A DNA stretch of 64,000 nt, taken from a virus. Within the stretch, counting starts at the first letter, position 1. Each line of letters begins with the position of its first letter. Below, in pieces: positions 5,154 to 31,320 of the stretch. Both the position numbers and the translations under genes were made by a program. The notes beneath the pieces were generated by a model. That model ran no database searches. It worked only from the letters and a program-made list of their open reading frames with translations, and was not told the DNA's origin. The stretch spans positions 1-64,000 of the IMG/VR virus record IMGVR_UViG_3300031227_000034. One strand, written 5' to 3'.

Positions 5154-5552
5154 TTATCTTATAAATACATCAAACACACAGGAATTTGACATTTCATTTG
5201 CCATTCTAGTAATTAATCTGCTTCTTGATTTGTTATAGTTTCTTTTTTGGTCAACTAAATCTTCACCTTTTGTCGCAATGATTCTTTCTTTTCTGGCAGA
5301 CTCAGTATCAAAGAATAAATTTAACATAGACTTTTTCTCTGATCTAAACTTTACACCCTTAACAAAATCCATACACAACTTTCCAAGAATTGCGTTCTGT
5401 GCTATTTGAATATCTATCGTTGGTGTTTTATAAGACTTTCCTGCCATCGGTGCTGAGAGGTCAGGTGAGCCTATAAATTGGTATCCATCCATGAGTTCAG
5501 ACTTGTAGTTTACAAACCAGTGTAGTATTTGAGCGTGTGAGCTAAATTTCAA
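5154..5552 (-). CDS. hypothetical protein, 132 aa
   Basis: Starts MKFSSHAQILHWFVNYK and overlaps the methyltransferase stop by four bases, so it is probably coupled to it. Basic, helical, no membrane segment. It contains SPDLSAPMAGKSYKTPT in the middle and an Arg/Lys-rich C-terminal third. It may act with the adjacent methyltransferase, but only position suggests this. Family not recognised. Confidence 0.75.
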   Translation of the reverse strand: MKFSSHAQILHWFVNYKSELMDGYQFIGSPDLSAPMAGKSYKTPTIDIQIAQNAILGKLCMDFVKGVKFRSEKKSMLNLFFDTESARKERIIATKGEDLVDQKRNYNKSRSRLITRMANEMSNSCVFDVFIR

Positions 5553-6319
5553 AACATAACCTCTTGTTTTTCTGTTTTTTCTGGAATTATATCTGTAAAT
5601 AAATCTCTTGCATCGTCAATCCGCTTTTGAGCAATCTTGAAGTATTCAGGGTCTTTTTCAATGCCGATAAATTTCCTGTTTAGTTTTCTGGCGGCGATTC
5701 CAGTAGTACCGCTCCCCATAGTAAAATCTAAAACCGTGTCGCCATCGTCGGTGTATGTTTTTATCAGGTAGGCCATCAATGCAACTGGCTTTTGGGTGGG
5801 GTGGATTGTGTTTGATTCACTTTCGATGTTCAAAACTTGCCTTGGATAACCCGTAAACTCTTGGATGTACTTGCCTACATTTACGCTTCCATAATTATCC
5901 GAATTGCCGTTACCGCTATCGCCTGTAGAAGAAATCTTTTTGCATAATATAATTCCTTGTGGATTATAAATGCTTTGTCCACCACAAAAAACAACAACAT
6001 CTTCAACACATCGCAGGGGCTGCTTTTTTGCGTTCAATACGCCTGTGACAACATTCTTATCCCATACCCAACAATACTTGAACATCTGATAATTCGAGGC
6101 AATCAATTTTGTAGTAAACGGCTGGCTTGCACACATAACTATTGCCGCATTCGGTTTTGTGACTCTTTTAATTTGCTCCCACATTGGAACAAAGGGGATT
6201 ATCGTATCCCATGCACAAGCGGTTGTGCCATATGGCAAATCAACTAAAACCATATCAACAGATTCAGGCTCAAGCTTTGGCAGCTCAATCAGGCAATCAC
6301 CTTTAATAAGTTTAATCAT
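5549..6319 (-). CDS. DNA methyltransferase, beta class (adenine-N6 or cytosine-N4)
   Basis: 256 residues. The catalytic motif IV is DLPYGTT at 27-33 (a DPPY variant) and the SAM-binding motif I is FTMGSGTTG near 199-207, followed by FIGIEKDPEYF. Catalytic motif before SAM motif is the beta-class order. The enzyme should methylate an exocyclic amine in DNA using S-adenosylmethionine; the target site cannot be read. In phages such orphan methyltransferases commonly protect against host restriction. A second member of the same class is at 31320-32027. The start overlaps the end of the interrupted upstream gene by four bases. Confidence 0.92.
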   Translation of the reverse strand: MIKLIKGDCLIELPKLEPESVDMVLVDLPYGTTACAWDTIIPFVPMWEQIKRVTKPNAAIVMCASQPFTTKLIASNYQMFKYCWVWDKNVVTGVLNAKKQPLRCVEDVVVFCGGQSIYNPQGIILCKKISSTGDSGNGNSDNYGSVNVGKYIQEFTGYPRQVLNIESESNTIHPTQKPVALMAYLIKTYTDDGDTVLDFTMGSGTTGIAARKLNRKFIGIEKDPEYFKIAQKRIDDARDLFTDIIPEKTEKQEVMF

Positions 6320-11601: not shown

Positions 11602-11662
11602 TTTAGTTCTCCTTAAGTTTAATTCGTGTCACACACAGATGTTTTTTAATCAAACTTTCCGT

Positions 11663-11917
11663 TTACTTTTTATACAAACGATAGTTTTCTAAAAAGTCAC
11701 AAAAAGACGAGTCGCCAGATATTGCATAATCATAAGACTTTAAAATAAGCCCCAATTTTTTACACGACTCTGATAAAAACGAAACAGCATCCAGCAGTTC
11801 GTCTCTATCTTGGTGTTCTAAAATCTCGGAGTCTTCACTAGTCTCCATGTCATATTTGAGTCTGCCGCTAATACTTATTAAATTTCTATCTTCGTAATCA
11901 AAGTGTCCGCCACTCAT
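11663..11917 (-). CDS. MSGGHFDY-type phage protein, 84 aa
   Basis: Begins MSGGHFDYEDRNLISISG, the N-terminal signature of a widespread small phage protein family of unknown function. Acidic and helical thereafter. ATG preceded by AAAGGAACAGCC. Confidence 0.75.
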   Translation of the reverse strand: MSGGHFDYEDRNLISISGRLKYDMETSEDSEILEHQDRDELLDAVSFLSESCKKLGLILKSYDYAISGDSSFCDFLENYRLYKK

Positions 11918-11941
11918 GGCTGTTCCTTTCGGTAAAGTTTT

Positions 11942-12187
11942 TTAACACACTCTTTCTTGAATAAAGTATGTTGCATAGTCTCTATCGCCAGACCTCGGCA
12001 GTCTAGCAGTTCTAAGCGACTTGGTTCGTCTTAATACCAAAGTTTTATTTCCCCGTTTCAATACTTCGTGTCTCGTTCCAATAAAACTTCTTTCAAAAAT
12101 AATAGGAAACCTAACCCCTAGCACACTTGAAATCATTTTGTGTGCTTTTCTTCTTTCAAGTCTTTTTTCTGCCTTGTAGAGTCTCAC
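11942..12187 (-). CDS. small basic protein, 81 aa
   Basis: Very basic (MRLYKAEKRLERRKAHK; KRGNKTLVLRRTKSLRTARL), consistent with nucleic-acid binding. Overlaps the upstream gene by four bases. No family recognised. Confidence 0.65.
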   Translation of the reverse strand: MRLYKAEKRLERRKAHKMISSVLGVRFPIIFERSFIGTRHEVLKRGNKTLVLRRTKSLRTARLPRSGDRDYATYFIQERVC

Positions 12188-12573
12188 TTTGTCACCTCGC
12201 TTTCATTAATCAATCCTGAAAATAAAATATCATAATAGCTGGTATGGAAACTCTCTTTAAAATCAGCTTTGTCGTTTATTTCGTCAATAAAATTGGGTTG
12301 ACTGCATTTTGGCAAGTACTCAAGGCTAAATTTCTCGTTCATAACCATAGTGTTTTCATTTAGTAATCTGCAATTAAAGCCTTTGTTTTTACATTCTTTC
12401 AGTGCTGCTTTCAAAAGAAGTGACCTTCCAACAATCATATCACCTTTTGTTGTAAAGCCTGTTGATACATTAGTCATAGCAAGAAGCTCGTTTGGTTTAT
12501 AAGTTCCATCCTTACAGTCAATGAATACCGTGAACCATTCTGACCAATATTTTTCAGCATTATATTTACTCAC
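12184..12573 (-). CDS. hypothetical protein, 129 aa
   Basis: Starts MSKYNAEKYWSEWFTVFID; soluble, mixed alpha/beta composition with DGTYKPNELLAMTNVSTGF. Four-base overlaps at both ends tie it to its neighbours. No family recognised. Confidence 0.7.
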   Translation of the reverse strand: MSKYNAEKYWSEWFTVFIDCKDGTYKPNELLAMTNVSTGFTTKGDMIVGRSLLLKAALKECKNKGFNCRLLNENTMVMNEKFSLEYLPKCSQPNFIDEINDKADFKESFHTSYYDILFSGLINESEVTK

Positions 12574-12764
12574 AGTATCACCTCCTCCGCAGCACAGTTA
12601 ATATTACTAAAATATTTACCACAAACATTAAATCCTCCTAAAGTCTCATATACATCGCAAGACTCAAAGACTTGATCCGGCTTGCCATCGCAGCTTACAA
12701 CTACGATTGATTGCATAGGGGAGCGGCCAGCTATCAGGAAAGCTATTAAAAGTATTATTCGCAT
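12570..12764 (-). CDS. small exported or membrane protein, 64 aa
   Basis: N-terminus MRIILLIAFLIAGRSPM looks like a short signal peptide or membrane anchor; the rest has four Cys (VSCDG, ESCDV, NVCGK, INCAA) that could form disulfides if exported. Overlaps the next gene by four bases and the previous by ten. No family recognised. Confidence 0.6.
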   Translation of the reverse strand: MRIILLIAFLIAGRSPMQSIVVVSCDGKPDQVFESCDVYETLGGFNVCGKYFSNINCAAEEVIL

Positions 12765-13141
12765 TGGTCACCATCACAATAATCATCAGCAATCTGTGCC
12801 TCAAGCTCGTTGGCCTGTTTCTTTTCGTCACGGCCTTCGCTGTCTGAATCAATAATCTCATTGAGCTTGTCGCAAATCATACGTTGGTCTTCATGCGAAT
12901 AAGCACCACCCTGCAAAATAGTAAATCTGTAACCAACAATTTCAAATTCCATCGACTTGTCTTTGAAATCCCTTGTTATTTCCCAAACACTGACTTCCGG
13001 CTTATCACAATGACTGTGGAAGTTTACCGCATAACCCGGAATTTCAAACAGGCATGAAATAGATGCACGTTTGTAATTAAGTTCTGCACTTACTATCTTG
13101 TAATTTTGTACCGCCTCTTGCATTCTTTCAATAATTTTCAT
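12755..13141 (-). CDS. hypothetical protein, 128 aa
   Basis: Start ATG 13141 is preceded by ATGGAGGTAATACAA, a strong ribosome site; a frame to 13171 is open but less likely. Begins MKIIERMQEAVQNYK, acidic C-terminus with DEKKQANELEAQIADD. Soluble. No family recognised. Confidence 0.7.
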   Translation of the reverse strand: MKIIERMQEAVQNYKIVSAELNYKRASISCLFEIPGYAVNFHSHCDKPEVSVWEITRDFKDKSMEFEIVGYRFTILQGGAYSHEDQRMICDKLNEIIDSDSEGRDEKKQANELEAQIADDYCDGDQCE

Positions 13142-13179
13142 TTGTATTACCTCCATTAGTTGTTGTTCCAAATTTTAGA

Positions 13180-13596
13180 TTATTCTGATTTTGGTTTTAG
13201 CCCAGATAAATTCCACGAATGGCAATCCATAACTTGCTTTCGCCATTCTTTATCTGTAACACCCTTGGCTCTTGCACTGTGACGATTTTCATAATAAACA
13301 ACTTCTCTTTCTTTATCGCTATTATTTTTTTGGTTTTTTTCCTCAAGATCGGTAACTTTCTTTTCTAATCTTTCAAGTATTGGAATTGTGCTTTCTCCAC
13401 CATCCCTAAAAGATATTTCTGAGGAGCTAATTATTTTAATTATTGGGTCTTCTTTGCTTTGCTCAAGCTTGCCACCATTCTCCAATAGGCCAATAATAGA
13501 AGATAATGCTTCAATAACCGAACTTGTCGCCTCTATAGCAATTCTACTAGAACCATAGTTTGTGCTTTCAATAACCACCATCATTTTTTTATTCAT
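13180..13596 (-). CDS. hypothetical coiled-coil protein, 138 aa
   Basis: Start ATG 13596 follows CAGGAGAAAAAG. Begins MNKKMMVVIESTNYGSSR; residues near 70-95 form a coiled coil (ILERLEKKVTDLEEKN). The C-terminus contains DKEWRKQVMDCHSWNLSG. No family recognised. Confidence 0.7.
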   Translation of the reverse strand: MNKKMMVVIESTNYGSSRIAIEATSSVIEALSSIIGLLENGGKLEQSKEDPIIKIISSSEISFRDGGESTIPILERLEKKVTDLEEKNQKNNSDKEREVVYYENRHSARAKGVTDKEWRKQVMDCHSWNLSGLKPKSE

Positions 13597-13618
13597 CTTT
13601 TTCTCCTGTTCATTTAAG

Positions 13619-13846
13619 TTATTCACATCCCACTAAATCAACATATCCTTCATCGTGGATATTTGTAATTTTAAGATTATAATCTGTTCCGGGAACATTT
13701 ACCGTATCCCCAACTTCATAATCGTCTAAATCTGTAACATTATCTTCTGGATATACGCTACTGAAACAATAATTTCCTATAACCAAATCTCCACAAAGTT
13801 CGTCATCAAAGTCAAGATTTAATTCAACTGCTTCAAGAAATGTCAT
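13619..13846 (-). CDS. hypothetical protein, 75 aa
   Basis: Start chosen at ATG 13846 with GGAAAGATGCAGACA upstream; an earlier ATG at 13888 is possible but would overlap the preceding gene further. Acidic beta-rich small protein with a YEVGDTVNVPGTDYNLKI segment that resembles a small SH3-like barrel. Function unknown. Confidence 0.65.
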   Translation of the reverse strand: MTFLEAVELNLDFDDELCGDLVIGNYCFSSVYPEDNVTDLDDYEVGDTVNVPGTDYNLKITNIHDEGYVDLVGCE

Positions 13847-14054
13847 TGTCTGCATCTTTCCAAAATACAGGAATTTGATTTTTGTCATAATGCCCTGCAC
13901 TCCAATAAGCATTTTTACCTATCCTGCCAATCAGGTTAATGTCAAATAGAGACAAGACAACATCTTTTGCTTCATCAATGGAGATGCAGTTTGTCCAAAA
14001 ATGTTCGTGGCGTTCTAGCTCTGGGTGTCTCTCGTTGTAATTTTCGATTATCAT
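13833..14054 (-). CDS. hypothetical protein, 73 aa
   Basis: Starts MIIENYNERHPELERHEHF, contains SIDEAKDVVLSLFDINLIG. ATG overlaps the upstream stop as TAATG. No family recognised. Confidence 0.65.
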   Translation of the reverse strand: MIIENYNERHPELERHEHFWTNCISIDEAKDVVLSLFDINLIGRIGKNAYWSAGHYDKNQIPVFWKDADNDIS

Positions 14055-14200
14055 TATTTTTTTCCTTCATTCGTGTCCTCGTCAGATTCGTAATCCCTGC
14101 CATATAATGTTTCATCAATGTCGCCATCAACAAACAATCCAGACAGATCATCAAACATGCTTTCTCTATCCATACTTTTTACAAAATCATCATATTCCAT
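14054..14200 (-). CDS. small acidic protein, 48 aa
   Basis: ATG 14200, preceded by AAAAAGGTGGTAGAC; TAA at 14054-14056 overlaps the next ATG. Product begins MEYDDFVKSMDRESMFDDL. It resembles the 39-aa ORF at 18959-19078 (MNEYNEFIGSLDGGDI) and, more weakly, the one at 14225-14353, so these look like a small family of acidic proteins in this block. Confidence 0.6.
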   Translation of the reverse strand: MEYDDFVKSMDRESMFDDLSGLFVDGDIDETLYGRDYESDEDTNEGKK

Positions 14201-14224
14201 GTCTACCACCTTTTTAAATTAATG

Positions 14225-14353
14225 TCAAGGTAAATTTTGGTCCTGTGATTCGTCACACAGATACAACTCGTCACTACCAAAAATTTCTTTGATGTCATTA
14301 TCCATATCTGTGCTGTCTATCATTCCAACATAGCTTTCTACGTAATTATCCAT
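14225..14353 (-). CDS. small acidic protein, 42 aa
   Basis: ATG 14353, preceded by AAAAGGAGAATATC; ends TGA at 14225-14227. Begins MDNYVESYVGMIDSTDMDN; strongly acidic, similar in size and composition to the 14054-14200 product. Function unknown. Confidence 0.6.
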   Translation of the reverse strand: MDNYVESYVGMIDSTDMDNDIKEIFGSDELYLCDESQDQNLP

Positions 14354-14387
14354 GATATTCTCCTTTTGTTTTTTTAAGAACTAATTA

Positions 14388-15050
14388 TCAGTGGCCGTTT
14401 TCTATTATAAACTCAATTATTTTTTGGTATTCATTAATTTGTTCTTTATCGTAATCATTTTCAACACCAATTTTTTTAAAGTCACTTCTCCATTCAGCGA
14501 AAGAGTGGACTTCACATCCTATTGAAATAAATCCAAACTTACAATTAGTTGCCGCATGAAACGACCCTTGTATATATAATGGGCTTTTTTCCCATGCATC
14601 ACCATATACCCGTGCATCACCATATACCCGTGCATCACCAGATACCCGTGCATCACCATATACCCATGCATCACCAGATACCAGTGCATTACCAGATACC
14701 CATGCATCACCAGATACCAGTGCATTACCATATACCCGTGCATCACCATATACCAGTGCATTACCATATACCCGTGCATCACCAGATACCCATGCATCAC
14801 CAGATACCCGTGCATTACCATATATCCGTGCATCACCAGATACCCGTGCATCACCAGATACCCGTGCATCACCATATACCCGTGCATCACCAGATACCCG
14901 TGCATTTGTTGATATGTGTACGCTTAAATCAATTTCAACAGAAACCCCGACCCATCCACCAAGTTCGCCGTTTTTGTTTCTCCATCCAAGGTGTAGTTCC
15001 CCGCCAAACAATTTCTTTAATCCTGTTTTGCCAAATGTTTTTTTTGTCAT
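14388..15050 (-). CDS. hexapeptide-repeat protein (YdcK-like left-handed beta-helix), 220 aa
   Basis: After an N-terminal region (residues 1-49) comes a run of about 17 six-residue repeats of the form G(D/N)A(R/W/L)V(S/Y), residues about 50-153, then a 65-residue C-terminal domain. Hexapeptide repeats of this kind build a left-handed parallel beta-helix; the closest known pattern is in YdcK-like phage and bacterial proteins. No acyltransferase active site is seen. The solenoid could be a structural or DNA-mimic-like rod. At DNA level the repeat unit is 18 bp and almost invariant except at three codon positions. Confidence 0.8.
   Translation of the reverse strand: MTKKTFGKTGLKKLFGGELHLGWRNKNGELGGWVGVSVEIDLSVHISTNARVSGDARVYGDARVSGDARVSGDARIYGNARVSGDAWVSGDARVYGNALVYGDARVYGNALVSGDAWVSGNALVSGDAWVYGDARVSGDARVYGDARVYGDAWEKSPLYIQGSFHAATNCKFGFISIGCEVHSFAEWRSDFKKIGVENDYDKEQINEYQKIIEFIIENGH
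14592..14906 (-). repeat. 18-bp tandem repeat, about 17 copies, inside the hexapeptide-repeat gene
   Basis: Each unit encodes one hexapeptide. The variable positions are GAT/AAT (Asp/Asn), CGG/TGG/CTG (Arg/Trp/Leu, one unit with Ile) and TCT/TAT (Ser/Tyr); the other bases are identical across most units. Such uniformity implies recent expansion or gene conversion. Confidence 0.9.
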
Positions 15051-15068
15051 AATATTAATCCCTTTCAG

Positions 15069-15329
15069 TTAAATTAAATTCGTGTGACACAATGTGTTTT
15101 TCTTATATATACAAAACCCATCATTTGTAAAAGAGTGTTTGCTAAAAACTTCAAAATGCTGGTTGTTTAAGTTTTTTGGCATTAATTCGTATTGCTCCCA
15201 AGAATCGCACCCTATAAATAAAACAACTTCACATTCGCTTTCTATTGTCCACTCAGGAGAAAACTCAAAGCCTGAATCTACCTTGCTATTATCTTTTAGC
15301 CTCATTTGAAGAAACCCTTGAAACTTCAT
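15069..15329 (-). CDS. hypothetical protein, 86 aa
   Basis: Begins MKFQGFLQMRLKDNSKVD; alternating hydrophobic pattern suggests a beta-sandwich. ATG preceded by TAGGAGAATAAATT. ATTCGT motifs occur inside (15184) and just downstream (15079). No family recognised. Confidence 0.65.
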   Translation of the reverse strand: MKFQGFLQMRLKDNSKVDSGFEFSPEWTIESECEVVLFIGCDSWEQYELMPKNLNNQHFEVFSKHSFTNDGFCIYKKNTLCHTNLI

Positions 15330-15346
15330 AATTTATTCTCCTATAG

Positions 15347-15402
15347 TTAGACAATCCACATGCTGACACCAACCAAATGATGCCAGCAAATTGAGTGTCT
15401 AA
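15347..15402. repeat. inverted repeat in intergenic leader
   Basis: TTAGACA (15347-15353) and TGTCTAA (15396-15402) are perfect inverted arms with TGCTG/CAGCA arms inside. It reaches into the end of the gene at 15399. It may fold in RNA as a terminator or processing hairpin. Confidence 0.4.
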
Positions 15403-15773
15403 TGGTTACAAATATTGTCTAGTGTATTCACTAATTCGTTAGCCCTGTCAATAGCTCCACTTGCAATTTCGCAATATACTTTGCACCAATGAAGGGGGAA
15501 TTGTTTTGACAAAATACTGAAATAAGGAATTGAAATGTTGCCAGACTCCTTACCACTAAACTTGTATGTTCCGTATACCTCAACACGTCTATCGGTAAAC
15601 ACATAATTATAATCATCTTTTGACGTGGGGATTTCTTCACAATCGCACCGTTCGTCCTGATTAAGATGTTTAATTATATCCCTGATTCGTGGTTCGTGCT
15701 GTTTAATAAATTCTTGCTCTTTTGATCTTAATTCGTGCGATATGGACACTAAATCTTTTATTAAATTATTCAT
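15399..15773 (-). CDS. hypothetical protein, 124 aa
   Basis: Starts MNNLIKDLVSISHELRSKEQ, helical; contains DERCDCEEIPTSKDDYNY and a C-terminal helix. Separated from the upstream gene by two bases. Three ATTCGT motifs fall inside it in different reading frames (HEL, RI, NEL). No family recognised. Confidence 0.65.
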   Translation of the reverse strand: MNNLIKDLVSISHELRSKEQEFIKQHEPRIRDIIKHLNQDERCDCEEIPTSKDDYNYVFTDRRVEVYGTYKFSGKESGNISIPYFSILSKQFPLHWCKVYCEIASGAIDRANELVNTLDNICNH

Positions 15774-15775
15774 GC

Positions 15776-16003
15776 TTATTCTCCTGATAAGTTTTCTTCA
15801 AACTGTTTAATAACATTCTCTACTGGCTCGCCACTGTAACAGCAAACAGTAGATATAAGCGAATCATTTTTATATAATCCGAACATTGATACATCAGAAT
15901 TATAGTGGCATTCGTAATCACCATCTTTTTTTCTATTGAAATATCCCTCTACTATGGTTTCATTTTCTTGTCGCTCTAATCGCTCTCGTGTTTCAGGTTT
16001 CAT
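15776..16003 (-). CDS. hypothetical protein, 75 aa, paralogue of 20139-20339
   Basis: Begins MKPETRERLERQENETIVEG. The C-terminal half SDVSMFGLYKNDSLISTVCC then YSGEPVENVIKQF matches the protein at 20139-20339, which has CYSGEPVENVI in the same place. The two are paralogues within the block. Ribosome site AAAAAGGATAATTATC belongs to a leader shared by several genes here. Confidence 0.7.
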   Translation of the reverse strand: MKPETRERLERQENETIVEGYFNRKKDGDYECHYNSDVSMFGLYKNDSLISTVCCYSGEPVENVIKQFEENLSGE

Positions 16004-16040
16004 GATAATTATCCTTTTTTAAGTTAGTCAATAACTCCAC

Positions 16041-16073
16041 ATATCCACACTAGCAGTTAACTAATGTGGATAA
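16041..16073. repeat. inverted repeat containing a consensus DnaA box
   Basis: ATATCCACAC-TAG and CTA-ATGTGGATAA form inverted arms between dnaN and the next gene. The - strand of the right arm reads TTATCCACA (16065-16073), the exact E. coli-type DnaA box; the left arm is one mismatch away. It could be a DnaA site or simply a terminator hairpin. Confidence 0.45.
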
Positions 16074-16082
16074 ATTGAGATA

Positions 16083-17213
16083 TTAACTTATGCGTACTGG
16101 CATGATAACACAATGAAAACCATCAGACTTGATTGAACAAGGTGATAACTCATCTGTAAATGAAAGTTCAACTTCTTTTGCAACTGTTTTGCTCAGGTAT
16201 CTTTTGAAGTAATTCGTGGAATAGACAGCCTTAAGATCATTCTGCCATGTGATATCTGATTCAACAATTTGACTCATAACATTCTTGCCAAATTCGCGCA
16301 AATTAAAACTCACTTCATTGCCGATTGACTTTAAAACAAAACATCCGTTATAACTATCAAGAGTTTTGCCAACCTTTTCAATTTTAACTAATGTTTTCAC
16401 AAGGCTTTTCGGATTTGCACAAAATGTTTTGTCCGACTCTCTTGGAATTACCATATTATAATCAGGATAATCACCATCAATCAATCTTGACCATGCTGTA
16501 ATATTGCCACATTCAAATTTTACGCTTGTATAGTCGAGAGATGTTTCATAATTGCCTTTTGATACCGACAAGACTGTGCAAGAGTCATCTTTTTTCGTGC
16601 AAGCTATAAACAATTTGATAGCTTGCCTTGTAACAATGATCTGTTCCATTTCACCTTTACAGTCAACTGTGGAATGTAACAAGGTGTATCCATCAGTAGA
16701 CACCATAACAAGTTTACCATCAACTTTTTCAAATAACATTCCATTCAAAAACACTCTTGGGTCATCATTGGCAATAGATTCATAGTGTGGAAGTAAATGT
16801 TTATACAATTCGCTTGAAAACATTATATCAATTTCTTTTGACTCACCAAATTCAACACTTGGATATTCACTTAAATCACCATCAATTACAAGTTTAATCG
16901 GTGATTCGTTTTCGCCAGTAATAAGCAATGTATCATCAAATTTTTCAATCCGAATGCTACCCTTGTTTGCAGTTTCTACCAAGGCATAAAGTCTTGTGAA
17001 GTCAATAAGGCATTCACCTTGTTCAAAGCCTTTACCAGAAAAGTTTGCAGTTACAATATTGTCAAGGTCAGTAACAGTAATTGAAAAGTTAAATTCGCTG
17101 TCAACTTTCAATTTAGCTTGTTTAAGGATTGGCAATGATGTTTTTGTGTTAACCACCAATTTGAGTTTTTTTAATTCTGCCAATAATTCGTTTTTCAAGA
17201 TGCTTGTTTTCAT
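16083..17213 (-). CDS. dnaN: DNA polymerase III subunit beta (sliding clamp)
   Basis: 376 residues from ATG 17213, chosen for the AAAAGGATAACTATT site; a frame to 17264 is open but lacks one. The N-terminus (MKTSILKNELLAELKKLK, VVNTKTSLPILKQAKL) is the classic clamp opening, followed by three clamp-like domains and a C-terminus ending HCVIMPVRIS, where bacterial clamps end in MPMRL. The ring-shaped dimer tethers DNA polymerase and other factors to DNA. A phage-encoded bacterial-type clamp implies that the phage or host replisome is redirected. It has a consensus promoter at 17264-17291. Confidence 0.93.
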   Translation of the reverse strand: MKTSILKNELLAELKKLKLVVNTKTSLPILKQAKLKVDSEFNFSITVTDLDNIVTANFSGKGFEQGECLIDFTRLYALVETANKGSIRIEKFDDTLLITGENESPIKLVIDGDLSEYPSVEFGESKEIDIMFSSELYKHLLPHYESIANDDPRVFLNGMLFEKVDGKLVMVSTDGYTLLHSTVDCKGEMEQIIVTRQAIKLFIACTKKDDSCTVLSVSKGNYETSLDYTSVKFECGNITAWSRLIDGDYPDYNMVIPRESDKTFCANPKSLVKTLVKIEKVGKTLDSYNGCFVLKSIGNEVSFNLREFGKNVMSQIVESDITWQNDLKAVYSTNYFKRYLSKTVAKEVELSFTDELSPCSIKSDGFHCVIMPVRIS

Positions 17214-17263
17214 AATAGTTATCCTTTTTAAAAGTTTTGTAACACTCCATATGCTACAAGACA

Positions 17264-17291
17264 ATTATACACAATTTAATTCGTATGTCAA
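17264..17291 (-). promoter_or_regulatory. consensus sigma-70 promoter for dnaN
   Basis: On the - strand TTGACA (17286-17291), 16-base spacer, TATAAT (17264-17269). The ACGAATT form of the block-specific motif lies inside the spacer. Confidence 0.8.
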
Positions 17292-17301
17292 GAGTTTTCT
17301 T

Positions 17302-17502
17302 TTATTTATATCCATTTTCTTTCAAAACGTCCATAGCCTTAATTCGTGTTACATTGCATTTTCTAAATTTAATATCCAGAAAATCGCCACCGATTATCAT
17401 TTTGCTTGGTCGGTCGGTAGCAGCAAATATTGATTCACCATCTCTTTTTACAATAACATACCCGTTTTCTTTAGATAAACACCATTTCATAACTTGCATC
17501 AA
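17302..17502 (-). CDS. hypothetical protein, 66 aa
   Basis: Begins MMQVMKWCLSKENGYVIVK and reads as a small beta-rich domain (DRPSKMIIGGDFLDIKF) with a C-terminal helix. Overlaps the upstream stop by four bases. The ATTCGTGTT motif at 17342 encodes TRI here, not the HEL seen elsewhere. No family recognised. Confidence 0.65.
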   Translation of the reverse strand: MMQVMKWCLSKENGYVIVKRDGESIFAATDRPSKMIIGGDFLDIKFRKCNVTRIKAMDVLKENGYK

Positions 17503-17690
17503 TTCGTTAAAATTTTATTGAAAATGCAAATCCAACAATCAAACAAATCATCGCAAATATCGCCGTGTAATTCGTGTCCTGAATAGCGTTCAATATCATT
17601 ATTAAATGCTTTTAAAGTCAATTCAGCATTAACTTCGTGGGCTACATATAAACTTAACCTAATCGCTTCGTACATTTTTTCGGTATACAT
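17499..17690 (-). CDS. hypothetical protein, 63 aa
   Basis: ATG 17690 follows AAAGGAGTAAAC; a longer frame to 17735 lacks a site. Starts MYTEKMYEAIRLSLYVAHE, helical and acidic with SGHELHGDICDDLFDCW. No family recognised. Confidence 0.65.
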   Translation of the reverse strand: MYTEKMYEAIRLSLYVAHEVNAELTLKAFNNDIERYSGHELHGDICDDLFDCWICIFNKILTN

Positions 17691-17775
17691 GTTTACTCCT
17701 TTCAAAATTAAATTACCAAGCGACAAGGCTATCAAATAAATAACCTTGCCTATCGTAAGCTAATCTTTTTCTGGC

Positions 17776-17964
17776 TTATTCTCCTGTAAGTGCATAGCGT
17801 GCTGATTTTGCGGCATCTTGTTCTATTCTTTCTTTAATCATTCGCTTGGCAGTTTTCAATCCGGTCAAAATTCCGTAATGATGTGCCGCAAGGATATTAG
17901 ACTCGTGGTCTTGTTTTTCCTAAAATTCAATTTTTTTCTTTACTTCTGCCAGTAGATTTTTCAT
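17776..17964 (-). pseudogene. 62-codon gene interrupted by an in-frame TAG
   Basis: ATG 17964 opens MKNLLAEVKKKIEF, then TAG (17920-17922, codon 15), and the same frame continues for 47 good codons (EKQDHESNILAAHHYGILTG ... ARYALTGE) to TAA 17776-17778. The continuation has no suitable restart codon near its beginning. The first codons resemble those of the next gene (MKNLLLEVKKE), whose leader is also similar. Other genes in the window terminate at TAG, so general amber reassignment is unlikely; this is a nonsense mutation or a readthrough site. Confidence 0.65.
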
Positions 17965-17981
17965 AATTATACCCCTAAAAA

Positions 17982-18503
17982 TTATTCTTGAAACTTGCAC
18001 AGGTAATCATTTAAAATTTCTGTTACCTTTTCAATCCCACCATATATTTCATAATAGATTGATTCGTCACCAACAAGTATTGATAATCCGCTGATGTTTT
18101 CATCTTCTTCAACACCTTCCGGACACGGGTCAACATTAAAACCAAAGTCATCCGCCCAGCTTAGGCAATATAATCCATTAAAAAACGTCCAATTTTTAAT
18201 GGATATTTTTTCGTCATACTTTCTGGCCTGCTTAAGAAACCCAACTCCGTTTTGCAATGCACCTTGAAGCGTATCAGACGGGTAAAAAGTTGCTCCACTA
18301 ACAAGCACCAAATCTAAATTTTTTTCATCGCCAAAACACAAATCAAGCTCAAATCTATGCTTACCATAATTATCTGCACTAAACTCTCGTATATTAACAA
18401 GATTGTGTCCATTTACTACAAGTGTTAATGGAAGTCCCCGAACGTCTGAAATATATTTAATTTCTTTAGTTTCTTTTTTGACTTCTAACAATAGATTTTT
18501 CAT
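17982..18503 (-). CDS. hypothetical protein, 173 aa
   Basis: Starts MKNLLLEVKKETKEIKYI; soluble, acidic, with SIKNWTFFNGLYCLSWADDF in the middle. The leader and first residues look duplicated in the broken gene just downstream. No family recognised. Confidence 0.7.
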   Translation of the reverse strand: MKNLLLEVKKETKEIKYISDVRGLPLTLVVNGHNLVNIREFSADNYGKHRFELDLCFGDEKNLDLVLVSGATFYPSDTLQGALQNGVGFLKQARKYDEKISIKNWTFFNGLYCLSWADDFGFNVDPCPEGVEEDENISGLSILVGDESIYYEIYGGIEKVTEILNDYLCKFQE

Positions 18504-18521
18504 GATTATACTCCTTTTAAG

Positions 18522-18596
18522 TTATCTTAATTCTGAATTTCTTGACGCACCAAAAACTTTTTCTGAATCATATCTAAACAATATTTTTTTATCCAT
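18522..18596 (-). CDS. possible 24-aa ORF
   Basis: ATG 18596 overlaps the end of the upstream gene; reads MDKKILFRYDSEKVFGASRN and stops at 18522. Basic and short. Overlap and strand fit, but support is limited. Confidence 0.35.
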   Translation of the reverse strand: MDKKILFRYDSEKVFGASRNSELR

Positions 18597-18945
18597 TTGT
18601 CGCCTCTGACAATAAGTTTGCTTTAATTTTGTTAAGTAAATCAAGGGCTTTGTTAATTGAATTTACTATAACTTCCTTATCAAGTTCATCATATACGCTA
18701 TCCAGAACTGATCTATAGACAGAACGGATGTGATAGCAATCACATCCACTAGTGGCTGTGACAACACAGCGAAAACAATCAACTCCACCATTCCCTTCAC
18801 GGTAGACACCGCATATCTCACAGCTATCCCTAAATGCTGATATTAATTTCTTCCTATTCCCTCCCAAAGCTAATGTTTTCATCAGTTCGTACTTGACAAT
18901 ACTTTTGTCTACTGCAATAAGCAGTTCGTTATCTTTAATGTCCAT
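18589..18945 (-). CDS. hypothetical Cys-rich protein, 118 aa
   Basis: Begins MDIKDNELLIAVDKSIVKYE. The centre carries CEICGVYREG, DCFRC and GCDCYH, a probable zinc-binding site of five or six Cys with a His, flanked by helices. ATG preceded by ATAGGAGTGTATA. Function unknown. Confidence 0.7.
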   Translation of the reverse strand: MDIKDNELLIAVDKSIVKYELMKTLALGGNRKKLISAFRDSCEICGVYREGNGGVDCFRCVVTATSGCDCYHIRSVYRSVLDSVYDELDKEVIVNSINKALDLLNKIKANLLSEATNG

Positions 18946-18958
18946 TATACACTCCTAT

Positions 18959-19078
18959 CTAATCGGTTAATTCGTATTCAGCAAGGTCAAAATCACCTGA
19001 GATATCAAACATATCACTAACACCGTCTAATATATCGCCACCATCTAAACTTCCAATAAATTCGTTATACTCATTCAT
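18959..19078 (-). CDS. small acidic protein, 39 aa
   Basis: ATG 19078 overlaps the upstream TGA; ends TAG at 18959. Reads MNEYNEFIGSLDGGDILDGV and ends AEYELTD. Similar layout to the 14054-14200 product (M-x-Y-x-x-F-(V/I)-x-S-(M/L)-D), indicating a repeated small acidic family in this block. Confidence 0.55.
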   Translation of the reverse strand: MNEYNEFIGSLDGGDILDGVSDMFDISGDFDLAEYELTD

Positions 19079-19482
19079 TTTGATTCTCCTTTGTAGTCAA
19101 TATTATAAAAGCATTCACTTAAATAATCAAGCAAATCATCAATAATGCAATCGTCTGCACTAGAGCCATTATTCATAACTAAAATATCAATATTCAATCC
19201 AGACAAACTGGCAGAAATTACAATTTTCAAACCGATAAATCCATCATAGTATCCATCGGCATGCATATAGTGGAAGTCAGTTAAAATAATCAATTCGTTT
19301 TCACTGCAATCATCTTGTGAAAAACAAACTTCACAATCTAAACCACTACCGCTAGGCAATAGCTTTTCTAGTTCGTTTATTTTCAATTCGTGTTTATATT
19401 CCCAGTCTGAATTGCCTGAATTTTGACAATTTCTAATAGCTACAATCAAGCTTGAAATTCTTGAATAGTATTGTAATGACAT
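19075..19482 (-). CDS. hypothetical protein, 135 aa
   Basis: Start at ATG 19482 with AAAAGGAAGATATT upstream. The frame is open to 19560 and would add a hydrophobic 26-residue N-terminus (MLIAGISFLVLVSEFF), so a membrane-anchored longer form is possible. Core begins MSLQYYSRISSLIVAIRN and is acidic with CEVCFSQDDCSENELI. No family recognised. Confidence 0.65.
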   Translation of the reverse strand: MSLQYYSRISSLIVAIRNCQNSGNSDWEYKHELKINELEKLLPSGSGLDCEVCFSQDDCSENELIILTDFHYMHADGYYDGFIGLKIVISASLSGLNIDILVMNNGSSADDCIIDDLLDYLSECFYNIDYKGESK

Positions 19483-19561
19483 AATATCTTCCTTTTCAAA
19501 ATTCGTGTTATTAAAAAACTCACTAACAAGCACTAGAAAACTAATGCCTGCTATCAGCATT

Positions 19562-20065
19562 TTAATCTATTGATTCTGGCAAGAGTCTGTTTAATTCGCT
19601 TTTAAGAAGTTTGTCTTCGCCTCTCATTTTCAAAATACTGGCTATTACTTCGGTTTTATCGTAACTGTAATTATCATACAACAAGTCAAAAGTCATATAA
19701 TCAGTTCCATTAATCGTAACTAATAAAAAGACAGGGCTATCGTAAAACAAGTTATGACATTCTTTTCTTAAATCAGCAAGGGAAATTGCATTCCCAAAAA
19801 CTTCAAGACATTCTTTAGAGTTAACATATATCGTAGCATAATCGCCTTGACAATAACCTATTATTTCAACCTTTTCGTAATTACAACTATCATCATAATC
19901 ACTTGACAAATTGCCATAGTCAACATAAAGCCAAGAATTACTCCCCTTTTCTGGTAGGGAAATAAAACTTTCAATAAAATTACTTCTACCCAATTCGTGA
20001 TCGTGGTCAACTTCTACTTCGATATCAATTCCGCACTCGCTCTTGGTAAAATTAGATGTTTTCAT
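19562..20065 (-). CDS. hypothetical protein, 167 aa
   Basis: Acidic, Tyr-rich protein starting MKTSNFTKSECGIDIEVEV, with DHDHELGRSNF and DLLYDNYSYDKTEVIAS. Leader AAAAAAGGATAAAGATT plus the consensus promoter at 20103-20130 lies upstream of the next gene rather than this one. No family recognised. Confidence 0.65.
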   Translation of the reverse strand: MKTSNFTKSECGIDIEVEVDHDHELGRSNFIESFISLPEKGSNSWLYVDYGNLSSDYDDSCNYEKVEIIGYCQGDYATIYVNSKECLEVFGNAISLADLRKECHNLFYDSPVFLLVTINGTDYMTFDLLYDNYSYDKTEVIASILKMRGEDKLLKSELNRLLPESID

Positions 20066-20102
20066 AATCTTTATCCTTTTTTAAATTGTCAATCTACAGT
20101 GA

Positions 20103-20130
20103 ATTATATACTAATGATTCGTGCTGTCAA
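20103..20130 (-). promoter_or_regulatory. consensus sigma-70 promoter for the 19562-20065 gene
   Basis: On the - strand TTGACA (20125-20130), 16-base spacer, TATAAT (20103-20108), reading toward the ATG at 20065. The spacer contains CACGAATC, a form of the block motif. A near copy is at 20713-20740. Confidence 0.8.
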
Positions 20131-20138
20131 GTAAATAA

Positions 20139-20339
20139 TTAAATTAATTCGTATCCAACCAAAAAATCATTAATTTCTGCAATTACATTTTCAACTGGTT
20201 CACCTGAATAGCATGATATACTATGCACAAGTTTTTCATTCCAGTAAATCCCATATTCAGACATTGTATTATACCAATAGCACTTACAATTATCCGGCAA
20301 TGCCTCGTTTATTTTAGCTTCGTTTTCAAATATTGACAT
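20139..20339 (-). CDS. hypothetical protein, 66 aa, paralogue of 15776-16003
   Basis: ATG 20339 with TAAGGAGTGTATC upstream. Begins MSIFENEAKINEALPDNCK and carries SISCYSGEPVENVIAEI, which matches the other copy. The paralogues differ in their N-terminal halves. Function unknown. Confidence 0.7.
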   Translation of the reverse strand: MSIFENEAKINEALPDNCKCYWYNTMSEYGIYWNEKLVHSISCYSGEPVENVIAEINDFLVGYELI

Positions 20340-20356
20340 GATACACTCCTTAGTTG

Positions 20357-20620
20357 TTATCTGTCTCTGCAAATAAATCCGCCTTCGCTATCATTATAGT
20401 TAGTTTCAATATTATATAAATCACAGTATCCTGCTTGATTCAAGTCGCAGCCCACACACTCATTGACATACTGTGAATAATAACTCAATTCGTGACGCAT
20501 TATCATTGGTTTTTGCCAGCATAGCAAATTATTAAATCTGCCAAAACAATAATCTGTTTTGCCTATAGTTTCAAACAACTTCCCAGAATTATCAACATAA
20601 ACACTCTTGTTAATTTTCAT
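20357..20620 (-). CDS. hypothetical Cys-containing protein, 87 aa
   Basis: Begins MKINKSVYVDNSGKLFETIG and has CVGCDLNQAGYCDLYN near the C-terminus, a possible metal site. No family recognised. Preceded by a short ORF whose stop overlaps its ATG. Confidence 0.65.
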   Translation of the reverse strand: MKINKSVYVDNSGKLFETIGKTDYCFGRFNNLLCWQKPMIMRHELSYYSQYVNECVGCDLNQAGYCDLYNIETNYNDSEGGFICRDR

Positions 20621-20676
20621 AATTCGTACCCCATATCATCCGATTCTAAAAAAATTTCCAAGTTAATCAGTTTCAT
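20617..20676 (-). CDS. possible 19-aa leader ORF
   Basis: ATG 20676 with AAAAAAGGATAATTATT upstream; reads MKLINLEIFLESDDMGYEL and stops overlapping the next ATG (ATGA). It has the shared leader and promoter of this block, so it may be a translated leader peptide for the 20357-20620 gene. Confidence 0.4.
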   Translation of the reverse strand: MKLINLEIFLESDDMGYEL

Positions 20677-20712
20677 AATAATTATCCTTTTTTAAATTGT
20701 CAATCTACAGTA

Positions 20713-20740
20713 ATTATATACTAATGATTTGTGTTGTCAA
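20713..20740 (-). promoter_or_regulatory. consensus sigma-70 promoter, near copy of 20103-20130
   Basis: On the - strand TTGACA (20735-20740), 16-base spacer with ACACAAATC, TATAAT (20713-20718). The promoter and following leader (AGATTGACAATTTAAAAAAG) are nearly identical to the copy 610 bases away, a segment duplication. Confidence 0.8.
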
Positions 20741-21139
20741 GTAAATAATTATTTTACTAGTGTTTTGTGCGTTAGCCACTGCCCTATTCCAAATGTCGTG
20801 TATGGCTTTAAATGCATCGTGCCAATTATTTCCATCAGACAAATGTTCCCACCATTTAGGCAAAACAGACTTGTCAAAAAAAGATGATTCAAAATCATAG
20901 TCCACGCTATTTTTTAAATTTGCAAAGCTAATAGGGTACTTAGGGGTATTGTTATCCAAAGCCCAAGCAAAACAAAATTTTTCATAAGCCTTTATCAATG
21001 CCGGGTAGATGTCATTTACAGACCAAAGATAATCTTGTTTTTTATCAAGATAATCAGGCATTGAACAATTAAATTTCCTTCTTGCCTTAAGTAATTTGCC
21101 AAATTTCTTTATTGTTTTTATTTCCTGTTTTGTCAACAT
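20714..21139 (-). CDS. hypothetical protein, 141 aa
   Basis: ATG 21139 is preceded by GAGGATACGAATT; a slightly longer frame to 21154 exists. Starts MLTKQEIKTIKKFGKLLKAR, basic helical N-terminus, then WHDAFKAIHDIWNRAVANA. The C-terminal tail overlaps the -10 of the downstream promoter. No family recognised. Confidence 0.65.
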   Translation of the reverse strand: MLTKQEIKTIKKFGKLLKARRKFNCSMPDYLDKKQDYLWSVNDIYPALIKAYEKFCFAWALDNNTPKYPISFANLKNSVDYDFESSFFDKSVLPKWWEHLSDGNNWHDAFKAIHDIWNRAVANAQNTSKIIIYLTTQIISI

Positions 21140-21154
21140 AATTCGTATCCTCAT

Positions 21155-21616
21155 AGTTAATTTAATTCGTTAATAACAACCCAAAGTTACCAAATGTTAC
21201 AGTATAATAAACAATATCATATACTTAACTCAAATAAAAAGTGTAACTTTTGTGAAGTAAAATAAGTCAATTCGTTATAGCATACCACATATGGTGTACA
21301 ATTCGTAACACACTACACTACATATGGTATAGCCAAACTATACTAAAAAATACAGATTTAACCAGTGATATCAAATAAATCTAATATATTACACTGCCGT
21401 TCGTCTCATATATCCACCAATCCGTGACAAATTTTCACGGTTTACCAAGGATTAAGCGGATAATTCGTGTTTATGTTGCATAATCAACGGAAATTCGTGT
21501 TATATTCCGTTTAATCCTTGGTATTATACCGTAATTTATACATAATTATATACAAACTATAGGCGTTTTCACGGGATAACACTTTTTTCTGTTTTAAAAG
21601 AGCAGTTTAATTCGTG
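21155..21616. other. non-coding region with hairpins and motif repeats; candidate origin or control region
   Basis: About 460 bases without a convincing ORF. It contains six ATTCGT motifs, two CATATG-centred elements near 21290 and 21325, a hairpin CCGTGA/TCACGG at 21422-21440, and a long inverted repeat (21443-21523). It lies beside the dnaN-containing block near the switch from - to + transcription. The structure resembles phage origins, but no experimental signal can be read. Confidence 0.5.
21443..21523. repeat. long inverted repeat around two ATTCGTG motifs
   Basis: TACCAAGGATTAAGCGGA (21443-21460) faces TCCGTTTAATCCTTGGTA (21506-21523) with one mismatch over 18 bases. The 45-base centre holds two ATTCGTG copies. 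Confidence 0.85.
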
Positions 21617-21835
21617 TTAGCAAATATCTCTCATTTTTGCAGAAAAGTCACACAAGTATTCCCCAACAATTTCACCGTCCCAAAAGTCATCCATTGTTAA
21701 CACCCCTTCGTGTGATAGATTAAAGTTTTTATCGTATGAAAACGCTTCCTTTTTCGCCTCGTTAAACAATTTATCGCTTTGTTGTTTGCTCAATCCAAAA
21801 GAACAAGCAATATCCTTAACTGAAATTTTATACAT
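21617..21835 (-). CDS. putative HTH protein, 72 aa
   Basis: Residues about 5-28 (SVKDIACSFGLSKQQSDKLF) fit a helix-turn-helix: first helix, GLS turn, second helix. The rest is acidic. Lying between two repeat-rich non-coding regions, it may be a DNA-binding regulator of this centre; function inferred only. Confidence 0.55.
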   Translation of the reverse strand: MYKISVKDIACSFGLSKQQSDKLFNEAKKEAFSYDKNFNLSHEGVLTMDDFWDGEIVGEYLCDFSAKMRDIC

Positions 21836-21849
21836 TTTGTTTTAATCCT

Positions 21850-21925
21850 CAGTTCGTGTTAGGTTTAATTCGTCTCAATTCGTGTTATAATTCGTTATAC
21901 ATTTCAATTCGTGTCCAATTCGTGT
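21850..21925. repeat. cluster of five ATTCGT motifs (plus one GTTCGT)
   Basis: Within about 75 non-coding bases ATTCGT occurs at about 21869, 21878, 21890, 21907 and 21918, plus GTTCGT at 21852, mostly extended to AATTCGTGT. This is the densest cluster of the motif in the window. Confidence 0.85.
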
Positions 21926-21934
21926 TACATTTTT

Positions 21935-22107
21935 CAAATGTCACTGGCACACTGCTATTCAAATGTCACTGCTCTGCTGTCCTTTGCCCAAATGTCACTC
22001 TCGCACTGTCATTGACATTTTTGTCATAGTACGCAAATTTTGCACGACATTTCTGTCATATGACAAATCTGTCCGACATTATTTTGACGCTACGACATTT
22101 CTGTCAT
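21935..22107. repeat. iteron-like repeats (CAAATGTCACT and GACATTTNTGTCA)
   Basis: CAAATGTCACT occurs at 21935, 21960 and 21989, then TGACATTTTTGTCA at 22013, CGACATTTCTGTCA at 22046 and 22094, and a variant at 22075. The common core is TGACATT in both orientations. Further copies lie at 23031-23046 and near 23310. No ORF is convincing here. Confidence 0.75.
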
Positions 22108-22145
22108 TGGCACGAATTTTGCTATTGCATTTTTTATGCCAACAA

Positions 22146-22355
22146 TTATTTTTGGTTTTGACCAAACTCAATTCCGAAGTCAAACATACTTTTGGCAAGT
22201 TCAAAGCCGAGCTTGCCCGAATCGCATCTTAGCAGATAATCACCTCCTTTTGGATATCTGCCGAGGAAGTTACAATTAAAATTATTGTCAAGACTTCTTG
22301 CCAAGTCAACAACATACTCAAAGCCACACTCAAAACCAATAAAATAGTCTTGCAT
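22146..22355 (-). CDS. hypothetical protein, 69 aa
   Basis: Begins MQDYFIGFECGFEYVVDLAR, small alpha/beta protein ending ELAKSMFDFGIEFGQNQK. Phe- and Gly-rich. No family recognised. Confidence 0.6.
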   Translation of the reverse strand: MQDYFIGFECGFEYVVDLARSLDNNFNCNFLGRYPKGGDYLLRCDSGKLGFELAKSMFDFGIEFGQNQK

Positions 22356-22398
22356 TTTTTTTACTCCAAAGTTTAAAAAATAGAATCATAACTTTTGA

Positions 22399-22707
22399 TT
22401 ATACATAATAATCTATGAATACTCCATCATAACTATTCATAGATTGAATAGCCCAAGATAAAAAATTATTGTCAAGAGTTTCTAAGACCTCGCTTTTTGA
22501 CTGACCGATATAATCAAAAAAACCTTGCTCCTCATCCTGCAAAGCTTCTTTGATATCATCGAACGATAAAAATGAAACCACCGCAATATATTTCCCTGCG
22601 TGATTGTATTGCATCATAACCGTTTTGCCTGTTATCGGATTTCTAATACAGCCTTGCTCATGCAAAGAGACAATAGCGTCAATATCTGTTTTGTCAGTGA
22701 ACAACAT
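22399..22707 (-). CDS. hypothetical protein, 102 aa
   Basis: Starts MLFTDKTDIDAIVSLHEQG; contains NPITGKTVMMQYNHAGKYIA and an acidic helix FDDIKEALQDEEQGF. ATG preceded by AAAAGGAGTAAAAACA. No family recognised. Confidence 0.65.
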   Translation of the reverse strand: MLFTDKTDIDAIVSLHEQGCIRNPITGKTVMMQYNHAGKYIAVVSFLSFDDIKEALQDEEQGFFDYIGQSKSEVLETLDNNFLSWAIQSMNSYDGVFIDYYV

Positions 22708-22724
22708 TGTTTTTACTCCTTTTG

Positions 22725-22925
22725 TTATATTGTCATATTGTCAAGATTGAATTGTATCTGATGGCCAGCTATTTTTTTATAATCACAATCGCATATCAAG
22801 GCATAATCACGCCTTGACAAGCCTTTTGTTCTTATATCCGAATTGATACCTTTATTGAATAAGTACCATTTAAAATTCATAAAATAAACTAAACTTGTAT
22901 TTTTTTTAAACTGATATTCTAACAT
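22725..22925 (-). CDS. hypothetical protein, 66 aa
   Basis: Begins MLEYQFKKNTSLVYFMNFKW; small basic protein with SRRDYALICDCDYKKIAGH. First gene after the consensus promoter at 22969-22996, so it heads the leftward block. No family recognised. Confidence 0.6.
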   Translation of the reverse strand: MLEYQFKKNTSLVYFMNFKWYLFNKGINSDIRTKGLSRRDYALICDCDYKKIAGHQIQFNLDNMTI

Positions 22926-22968: not shown

Positions 22969-22996
22969 ATTATATAGTAATGATATCGCTTGTCAA
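22969..22996 (-). promoter_or_regulatory. consensus sigma-70 promoter heading the leftward block
   Basis: On the - strand TTGACA (22991-22996), 16-base spacer carrying GATATC, TATAAT (22969-22974). Confidence 0.8.
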
Positions 22997-23086
22997 GCTT
23001 TTTTTTTGCTTTTATTTAATTTATTTTGCTATGACATTAATGTCATATATAAGTGCGAGTGTAAAGTAAACGGTACACAAAACCGA

Positions 23087-23167
23087 AACGATATCGACCA
23101 CCAATAGCAAGGTGATTTGATGTTTTGATTAAATAAAACGATATCAACCACCAATAGTAACGATATC
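23087..23167. repeat. direct repeats, 50-bp period
   Basis: The 21-base units at 23087-23107 and 23137-23157 differ at one base (AACGATATC followed by G or A, then ACCACCAATAG). A partial third copy, AACGATATC, is at 23159-23167. Confidence 0.85.
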
Positions 23168-23427
23168 CGGCCGCCTAAAATAAAAACCGGATTGTAAACC
23201 AAACTTGACACAAAACAGCCTAAATTGCCATAATGTCAAAATACCAAGTCGATGGGCAGAATTGACGCGGTGTGTATACCTATAAGGTACATTATGCATA
23301 GTCAAACCACGACATTTTTGTCAATTTTAAAATCCATGCCAAGATGCTTTACTAAAGAATTGAGATAGTAAAGTTTAGTTTACAACTTGTCGGTTATGGT
23401 AGATATAACCTGTTATTTGCTCTTAGC

Positions 23428-30969: not shown

Positions 30970-31320
30970 TTAAATTGTGCTTGGGTTTACTTTGACAAAA
31001 TATCTAAACTCTTTGTTTATGTCATAATTGTCAGTAATAACCATCGGAAGCAATTTTGTAAACTTTATTTCATTTGCTCTGGTTGACATAAATTTTATTA
31101 GTTCAGTCTCGTTTTTAATTTCTCTGAGACGGTATTGAAAAAACCCGATTGCGATCTTGGTTCTCTCCACGCTAATCTGAGGGAACAATAATTGAATCCT
31201 TGAAGTGTCAGATGTCATTTGGTAATCGCAACCCTTTTCTTTTATAACCACTATGCCGATATTTACTGCTTCAAAGTTTTCTCTATATTGTATAATTGTG
31301 TATTTTGCTTTTTCTTTCAT
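30970..31320 (-). CDS. DUF3037-like protein, 116 aa
   Basis: KYTIIQYRENFEAVNIGIVV at residues 6-25 resembles the opening of DUF3037 proteins (a YxxxQY...E.vNIG pattern). Function of the family is unknown. The ATG overlaps the stop of the methyltransferase by one base, so the two are coupled. Confidence 0.65.
   Translation of the reverse strand: MKEKAKYTIIQYRENFEAVNIGIVVIKEKGCDYQMTSDTSRIQLLFPQISVERTKIAIGFFQYRLREIKNETELIKFMSTRANEIKFTKLLPMVITDNYDINKEFRYFVKVNPSTI

Follow-up and report, generated by a model that had tools for sequence, protein, structure and literature searches.

A strand-biased ACGAATT motif in one leftward gene block of a tailed phage and its possible role in the early transcript

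The leftward gene block and its motif

The stretch of DNA analysed here (the window, 64,000 nt) comprises bases 1–64,000 of a 70,968-bp virus record of the IMG/VR collection, IMGVR_UViG_3300031227_000034; the remaining 7 kb of the contig were read too (within stretch L129). The contig bears a tailed phage gene set, with a tail sheath, an HK97-type major head protein, a portal, a large terminase, an RtcB-type RNA ligase, a DnaB helicase and two DnaN clamps. Between 22.9 and 11.0 kb the genes are transcribed leftwards, and among them is an early block of open reading frames (ORFs), including that for the clamp DnaN1, in which the hexamer ATTCGT recurs on the + strand. Since the genes of the block all run leftwards, this is ACGAAT in the transcript, and ACGAATT is the transcript-sense motif.

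An earlier note on this DNA had counted by eye about 40 copies of ATTCGT on the + strand between 11.6 and 22.0 kb, about 24 within genes and about 16 in non-coding DNA, and had described the reverse form as almost absent there and ATTCGT as scarce in the rest of the window. Exact counting agrees: the window has 42 copies, of which 40 are at 11,622–21,918 and two elsewhere; none is added by the rest of the contig (7 kb), and ACGAAT is met once (13,215) on the + strand within 11.6–22.0 kb. The whole contig holds 32 minus-strand copies of ACGAATT, all within 11.6–21.93 kb, and three plus-strand copies; on its + strand ACGAAT totals 17, which outside the block is below expectation. The region itself had been drawn too wide, for 39 of the 40 sites fall within 14,054–21,930, the dense part running from 14.07 to 21.92 kb, and the fortieth stands by itself between genes at 11,622. 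Between 14,054 and 21,930, 25 sites are fully coding, in all three frames (17, 5 and 3), and 14 are non-coding or span a gene edge. AATTCGT is found 32 times in the block and AATTCGTGT, the frequent extension already remarked upon in that note, 12 times, each with no reverse copy. Adjacent leftward and rightward genes are unmarked, and the signal ends at the edges of this single leftward block.

The leader of the block carries five copies of ACGAATT and one of ACGAACT in 73 nt, 16–88 nt upstream of the first ORF, with no significant helical phasing among them; a third pattern in the phasing test was disregarded as arising artificially from overlapping alternatives. Two hairpins have further copies within or next to them, and others occur where genes adjoin and in the genes themselves (Table 1). 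The leftward genes are served by four perfect TTGACA-16-TATAAT promoters, and two of these, the dnaN1 promoter and that at 20103, do have ACGAAT in the spacer, as had been claimed. Rough arithmetic, based on how densely the motif occurs in the remaining non-coding DNA, puts the chance of two such spacer hits at 2–3%, and the two copies are a hint of a role at the level of DNA.

Table 1. Coordinates of the block, its promoters and its motif-bearing features (positions in the window).
Feature	Position	Strand	Basis
Early gene block, 18 ORFs including dnaN1; 39 of 40 ACGAAT copies, counting its leader	14054..21835	-	ORF and small-ORF lists, motif positions
Leader array: ACGAATT at 21917-21923, 21906-21912, 21889-21895, 21877-21883 and 21867-21873, ACGAACT at 21851-21857; spacings 11, 17, 12, 10, 16 nt	21851..21923	-	motif positions
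First ORF downstream of array, 72 amino acids	21617..21835	-	no database match; helix-turn-helix N-terminus by eye only; model predicted local distance difference test (pLDDT) 54
boxA-like TGCTCTTTTAAA, immediately after the ACGAATT copy at 21609; 10/12 match to TGCTCTTTAACA	21593..21604	-	found post hoc
Strong hairpin in non-coding sense RNA, enclosing ACGAATT copies 21492 and 21462	21440..21530	-	fold z-score -5.0
Second hairpin, ACGAATT 21300 in loop, 21269 just downstream	21255..21335	-	fold z-score -2.2
dnaN1 sliding clamp, 393 amino acids	16083..17264	-	PHROG 947, E 3.8e-40
dnaN1 promoter TTGACA-T-ACGAATT...TATAAT, 16-nt spacer; motif 17278-17284	17264..17291	-	promoter scan
Promoter TTGACA-GC-ACGAATC...TATAAT, 16-nt spacer; motif 20116-20122	20103..20130	-	promoter scan
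Duplicate of the 20103 promoter, ACAAAT replacing ACGAAT	20713..20740	-	promoter scan, repeat comparison
Upstream perfect promoter TTGACA-16-TATAAT, motif-free	22969..22996	-	promoter scan
Isolated ACACGAATT in the leader of the gene group that follows; 74% flank identity with the 15077 copy	11621..11627	-	motif positions, flank comparison

Form of the motif and selection on the nucleic acid

The motif is sequence-specific. Its tolerated form, RCGAAYY, occurs in the block 47 times in sense and once in antisense orientation, and YCGAAYY is absent; by single-change variants, positions 2–5 (CGAA) are strict, position 1 takes G, and positions 6 and 7 take C. Information is confined to 7–9 bp, and the most frequent preceding pair is AC (11 of 31 copies), which yields the AATTCGTGT form. 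There is no fixed distance to gene starts; the median from motif to nearest start is 78 nt vs 120 nt for random places (p 0.05), many copies lie deep in genes, and genic copies lean weakly towards gene ends (p 0.03–0.18, depending on the measure). A base-pairing guide RNA was considered and rejected, since the tolerated changes (G for A at position 1, C for T at positions 6 and 7) fit poorly with pairing to AAUUCGU; the complement AATTCGTG has a single sense-strand occurrence close to the block (22,111–22,118), which is not above chance.

In the non-coding DNA of the block (1,331 nt) there are 13 copies of ACGAATT against 0.30 expected from an order-1 Markov model, and in the coding DNA (6,546 nt) 18. 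A set of 1000 synonymous shuffles gives 4.6 for the latter (standard deviation 1.9, maximum 12), and shuffling the order of codons gives 1.3; neither fraction holds a reverse copy. With copies within 60 nt collapsed to one, 24 remain vs 1.3 expected, and the z-score of 18.1 is that of the top 7-mer of the contig. The earlier note had named a k-mer test as a check on its proposal, and the excess stands above composition and codon use; as the collapsed count is still so high, it is not the product of a few duplicated leaders. The further claim, that selection acts on nucleic acid rather than on protein, is supported by the synonymous and Markov expectations being exceeded, by the use of three frames, and by the proteins themselves: [HNYD]EL tripeptides number 7.8 per 1000 amino acids in block proteins vs 1.3 in the rest of the phage, and motif codons are used by 11 of the 17 in the block vs 2 of the 24 elsewhere. 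The proteins of the block are bent to accommodate the motif.

Two paralogous genes of 35% identity carry the motif at non-homologous positions, and two promoters that are 91% identical over 45 nt have ACGAAT in one and ACAAAT in the other, from which it follows that copies have been gained and lost independently. The three ACGAAT copies in dnaN1 are located, by alignment, where the two clamps of the phage differ. In the other genes of the phage the motif is mildly depleted, both as ACGAATT (3 vs 9.3 expected, with 5 of 300 synonymous shuffles as low) and as ACGAAT (14 vs 22.3, with 7 of 300 as low), and a permuted 7-mer control shows no avoidance there (5 vs 6.1). This is modest evidence that carrying the motif is costly to other transcripts.

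Other phages and neighbouring features

No related block was found in any collection searched. For the 12-kb region searched, a set of 50,697 phage records contained nothing close, and phage tblastn searches, for which three block proteins served as queries along with DnaN1, capsid, portal and TerL, led to remote matches or none. Viral contigs yielded no relatives to single queries with DnaN1 and TerL or to an alignment of two paralogous block proteins; an alignment of DnaN1 and DnaN2 found ten loci, of which two are fragments of the same phage and the other eight have at most two motif copies. The two fragments (L199, L200) are IMG/VR contigs from other assemblies and are 100% identical to the phage described here. 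No comparable excess was seen in 64 viral contigs whose promoter spacers include the motif, and a search of viral contigs for TAACACGAATT pairs led to five loci, at none of which is it scattered across genes as it is here. Among the titles listed for literature containing the string ACACGAATT there was no phage signal.

Tandem arrays of the same 7-mer do occur in other phages. When viral contigs were scanned for ACGAATT in three closely spaced copies, at least 120 stretches were obtained; the counts by orientation hold among the matches listed, which are not a random sample, and have a single permutation as control. Arrays adjacent to a gene start are sense-oriented in 57 cases and antisense in 9, or in 40 and 4 groups after related loci are collapsed, vs 9 and 11 for the permuted 7-mer AACGATT. 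Their spacing is most often 9 nt, and several run directly into the ATG (L012-L128, for example L031, L035, L040 and L102). Triple arrays in bacterial chromosomes (L329-L446) are mostly intergenic and from Bacteroidota (Flavobacterium, Prevotella); as sense-leader elements they were rejected on their orientation to gene starts (7 vs 16).

Several other features of the contig may be recorded here. Upstream of the leader array is an operator-like region (21,936–22,075) with three copies of AAATGTCAC (21,936–21,998) and TGACA palindromes at 22,013 and 22,061, and repeated ATTGGTGGTYGATATCGTT elements at 23065–23180 occupy the intergenic control region that separates leftward from rightward genes. 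GATATCG is over-represented in the leftward genes at 0–7.4 kb too. The two clamps, at 16083–17264 (-) in the window and 65950–67077 (+) of the contig (L129 5950–7077), are 28% identical, and the diverged one alone sits in the motif block. Paralogous small proteins encoded at 15776–16003 (-) and 20139–20372 (-) have CYSGEPVENVI in common, and the collections searched yielded no relatives of them. An 18-bp tandem repeat of about 18 copies (14523–14977) encodes a hexapeptide repeat within the ORF at 14388–15050. There are three DNA methyltransferase-like genes, at 5549–6319 (-) and 31320–32027 (-) in the window and at L129 8730–9530 (+), two of them up to 84% identical at the DNA level. An ORF with tandem SNATNSGD repeats runs past the end of the contig (L129 10427–10966), and this repeat may have broken the assembly there. 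Scans of the window with Rfam and for tRNAs gave no matches.

What may read the motif

The strand bias does not discriminate by itself between an element of the transcript and a stoperator-type DNA site with a fixed orientation, since it fits both alike. The reading that we tentatively prefer is that RCGAAYY, typically ACGAATT, is a linear single-stranded RNA element through which a sequence-specific protein controls one early mRNA, and we place RNA-level control ahead of stoperator-like DNA sites. The putative reader, a protein of phage or host, would be loaded by the packed copies of the leader, and the copies throughout spacers and genes would hold the long mRNA under its control, so that the transcript would be controlled as a unit after transcription has started. 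Action on RNA is suggested by the irregular spacing of the leader copies (10–17 nt) without significant phasing, as recognition of a single strand predicts, and by the spread of the motif through coding sequence. In the folded transcript the accessibility of motif sites is slightly above that of 7-mers of the same composition (p = 0.0008) and not above that of CG-containing ones (p = 0.21), and the lack of any shared structure at the sites points to a linear one.

As to the direction of control, a timed shut-off of the early mRNA, by cleavage or translational repression, is favoured. The mild depletion of the motif in other genes, with the cost that it suggests in other transcripts, fits shut-off better than activation, and T4 RegB and RegA, which act in this way on other sequences, are the other ground for choosing it. 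The sites of RegB (GGAG, PMC3014915) and the RegA operators are likewise short linear RNA elements of early transcripts, found in spacers and sometimes in genes and recognised unpaired. They differ from the present motif in sequence, and RegB sites are mostly at translation initiation regions; no match to RegB or RegA was found among the subset of ORFs scanned.

Some points weigh against control at the RNA level. The motif stands in two promoter spacers, outside the RNA made by those promoters; the first three ORFs behind the 22996 promoter (22146–22925) are without it; no reader protein was found, Pfam and PHROG giving no repressor among the ORFs scanned, most of which are orphans; and the leader arrays of other phage contigs may be unrelated to the block.

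The next candidate, and a doubtful one, is an asymmetric repressor or roadblock protein of the phage whose double-stranded ACGAATT sites, placed in promoters and throughout the operon and oriented with transcription, would let it block both initiation and elongation there. Cluster A mycobacteriophages such as L5 and TipsytheTRex have stoperators of this kind, short asymmetric repeats in promoters and operons (PMC6550527, PMC9283540), and the distribution described here, with 47 sense copies of RCGAAYY to 1, two of the four perfect promoters and many sites inside the operon, matches that pattern. The low chance of hitting two promoter spacers also speaks for it, as does the first ORF behind the array, which by eye resembles a helix-turn-helix protein. 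In contrast, stoperators of the L5 type are 13 bp long, present as 20–30 sites genome-wide, mostly in short intergenic gaps, and bound by a known monomeric repressor with two domains (PMC6550527, PMC9283540), whereas the motif has a 7-bp core, marks one block only, and lies in coding sequence in 18 of its 31 ACGAATT copies. A protein of the stoperator type requires more than the 13-bp core (PMC9283540), and leader copies 10–12 bp apart could not all be filled by it at the same time. Helical phasing is not significant, and neither Pfam nor PHROGs recognised a repressor among the ORFs scanned.

Processive antitermination is unlikely. It would have the copies load a Nus-type or phage complex onto the RNA as it is made, allowing polymerase to read through the long operon, and sites that are sense-only and densest in the leader would suit it, like the lambdoid nut and put sites (put: PMC9378689), which also belong to the sense strand and come early in their operons. 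Next to the copy at 21609 is the boxA-like TGCTCTTTTAAA; this TGCTCTTTA-like candidate at 21604, a 10/12 match to TGCTCTTTAACA, is single and was found post hoc, the expectation for exact TGCTCTTT in the sense strand of the block being 0.08, and the fold downstream shows no boxB-like hairpin. Known nut and put sites number one or two per operon and are composite or structured, whereas here the operon is strewn with dozens of 7-mers that have no structure. The region has 6 terminator-like sites, no more than its shuffles would give (5.0), and a helpful tag should not be depleted elsewhere.

It is slightly less probable still that ACGAAUU is a general phage RNA tag, set out as tandem leader arrays in many phages and operon-wide in this one, and read by an RNA-binding or RNA-cutting factor. 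The arrays of other IMG/VR contigs share the identical 7-mer and its sense orientation before starts, but they are compact, with a 9-nt period directly before the start codon, and are not spread through genes. Many of them are probably from phages of Bacteroidota, while the phage described here has TTGACA/TATAAT (sigma70-type) promoters and uses Shine-Dalgarno sequences (52 of 90 ORFs vs 9 of 90 random places). Start-associated motifs of actinobacteriophages, such as those of Microbacterium phage cluster EC (PMC7302621), are also asymmetric and of single orientation relative to genes, but in cluster EC they are 18 bp long, number about 10–12 copies and sit at a fixed 21–30 bp before starts, unlike the present motif with its variable distance.

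The remaining explanations have little to commend them. A replication, primase, recombination or packaging signal read off one DNA strand would account for asymmetry and density beside a clamp gene, but it is very improbable: such signals span replication arms or form a single site, and the motif is concentrated in non-coding spacers and stops at the edges of one leftward block, which disfavours the primase or recombination signal that the earlier note had entertained; the helicase gene and that for the second clamp are located elsewhere and lack the motif. An RNA sponge, with the transcript sequestering a host regulator that recognises ACGAAUU, is equally hard to credit, for although a presumably abundant early RNA with its many copies would serve, a compact array would do as well, and selection within conserved genes such as dnaN1 would be unnecessary. 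That the motif has no function, and reflects an AT-rich block with an A-rich sense strand and some duplicated promoters and genes, is practically inconceivable, since no synonymous, codon-order or Markov test reproduces the excess, which outlasts the collapsing of neighbours, and the flanks of the copies are mostly unrelated.

A 7-nt signal has been imposed on the spacers and proteins of one operon and is slightly avoided elsewhere, which implies a sequence-specific reader, and this would be a new regulator of phage or host origin. The same 7-mer is common to the block and to the sense leader arrays of unrelated phage contigs, pointing to a possible wider class of leader signals that would be directly searchable.

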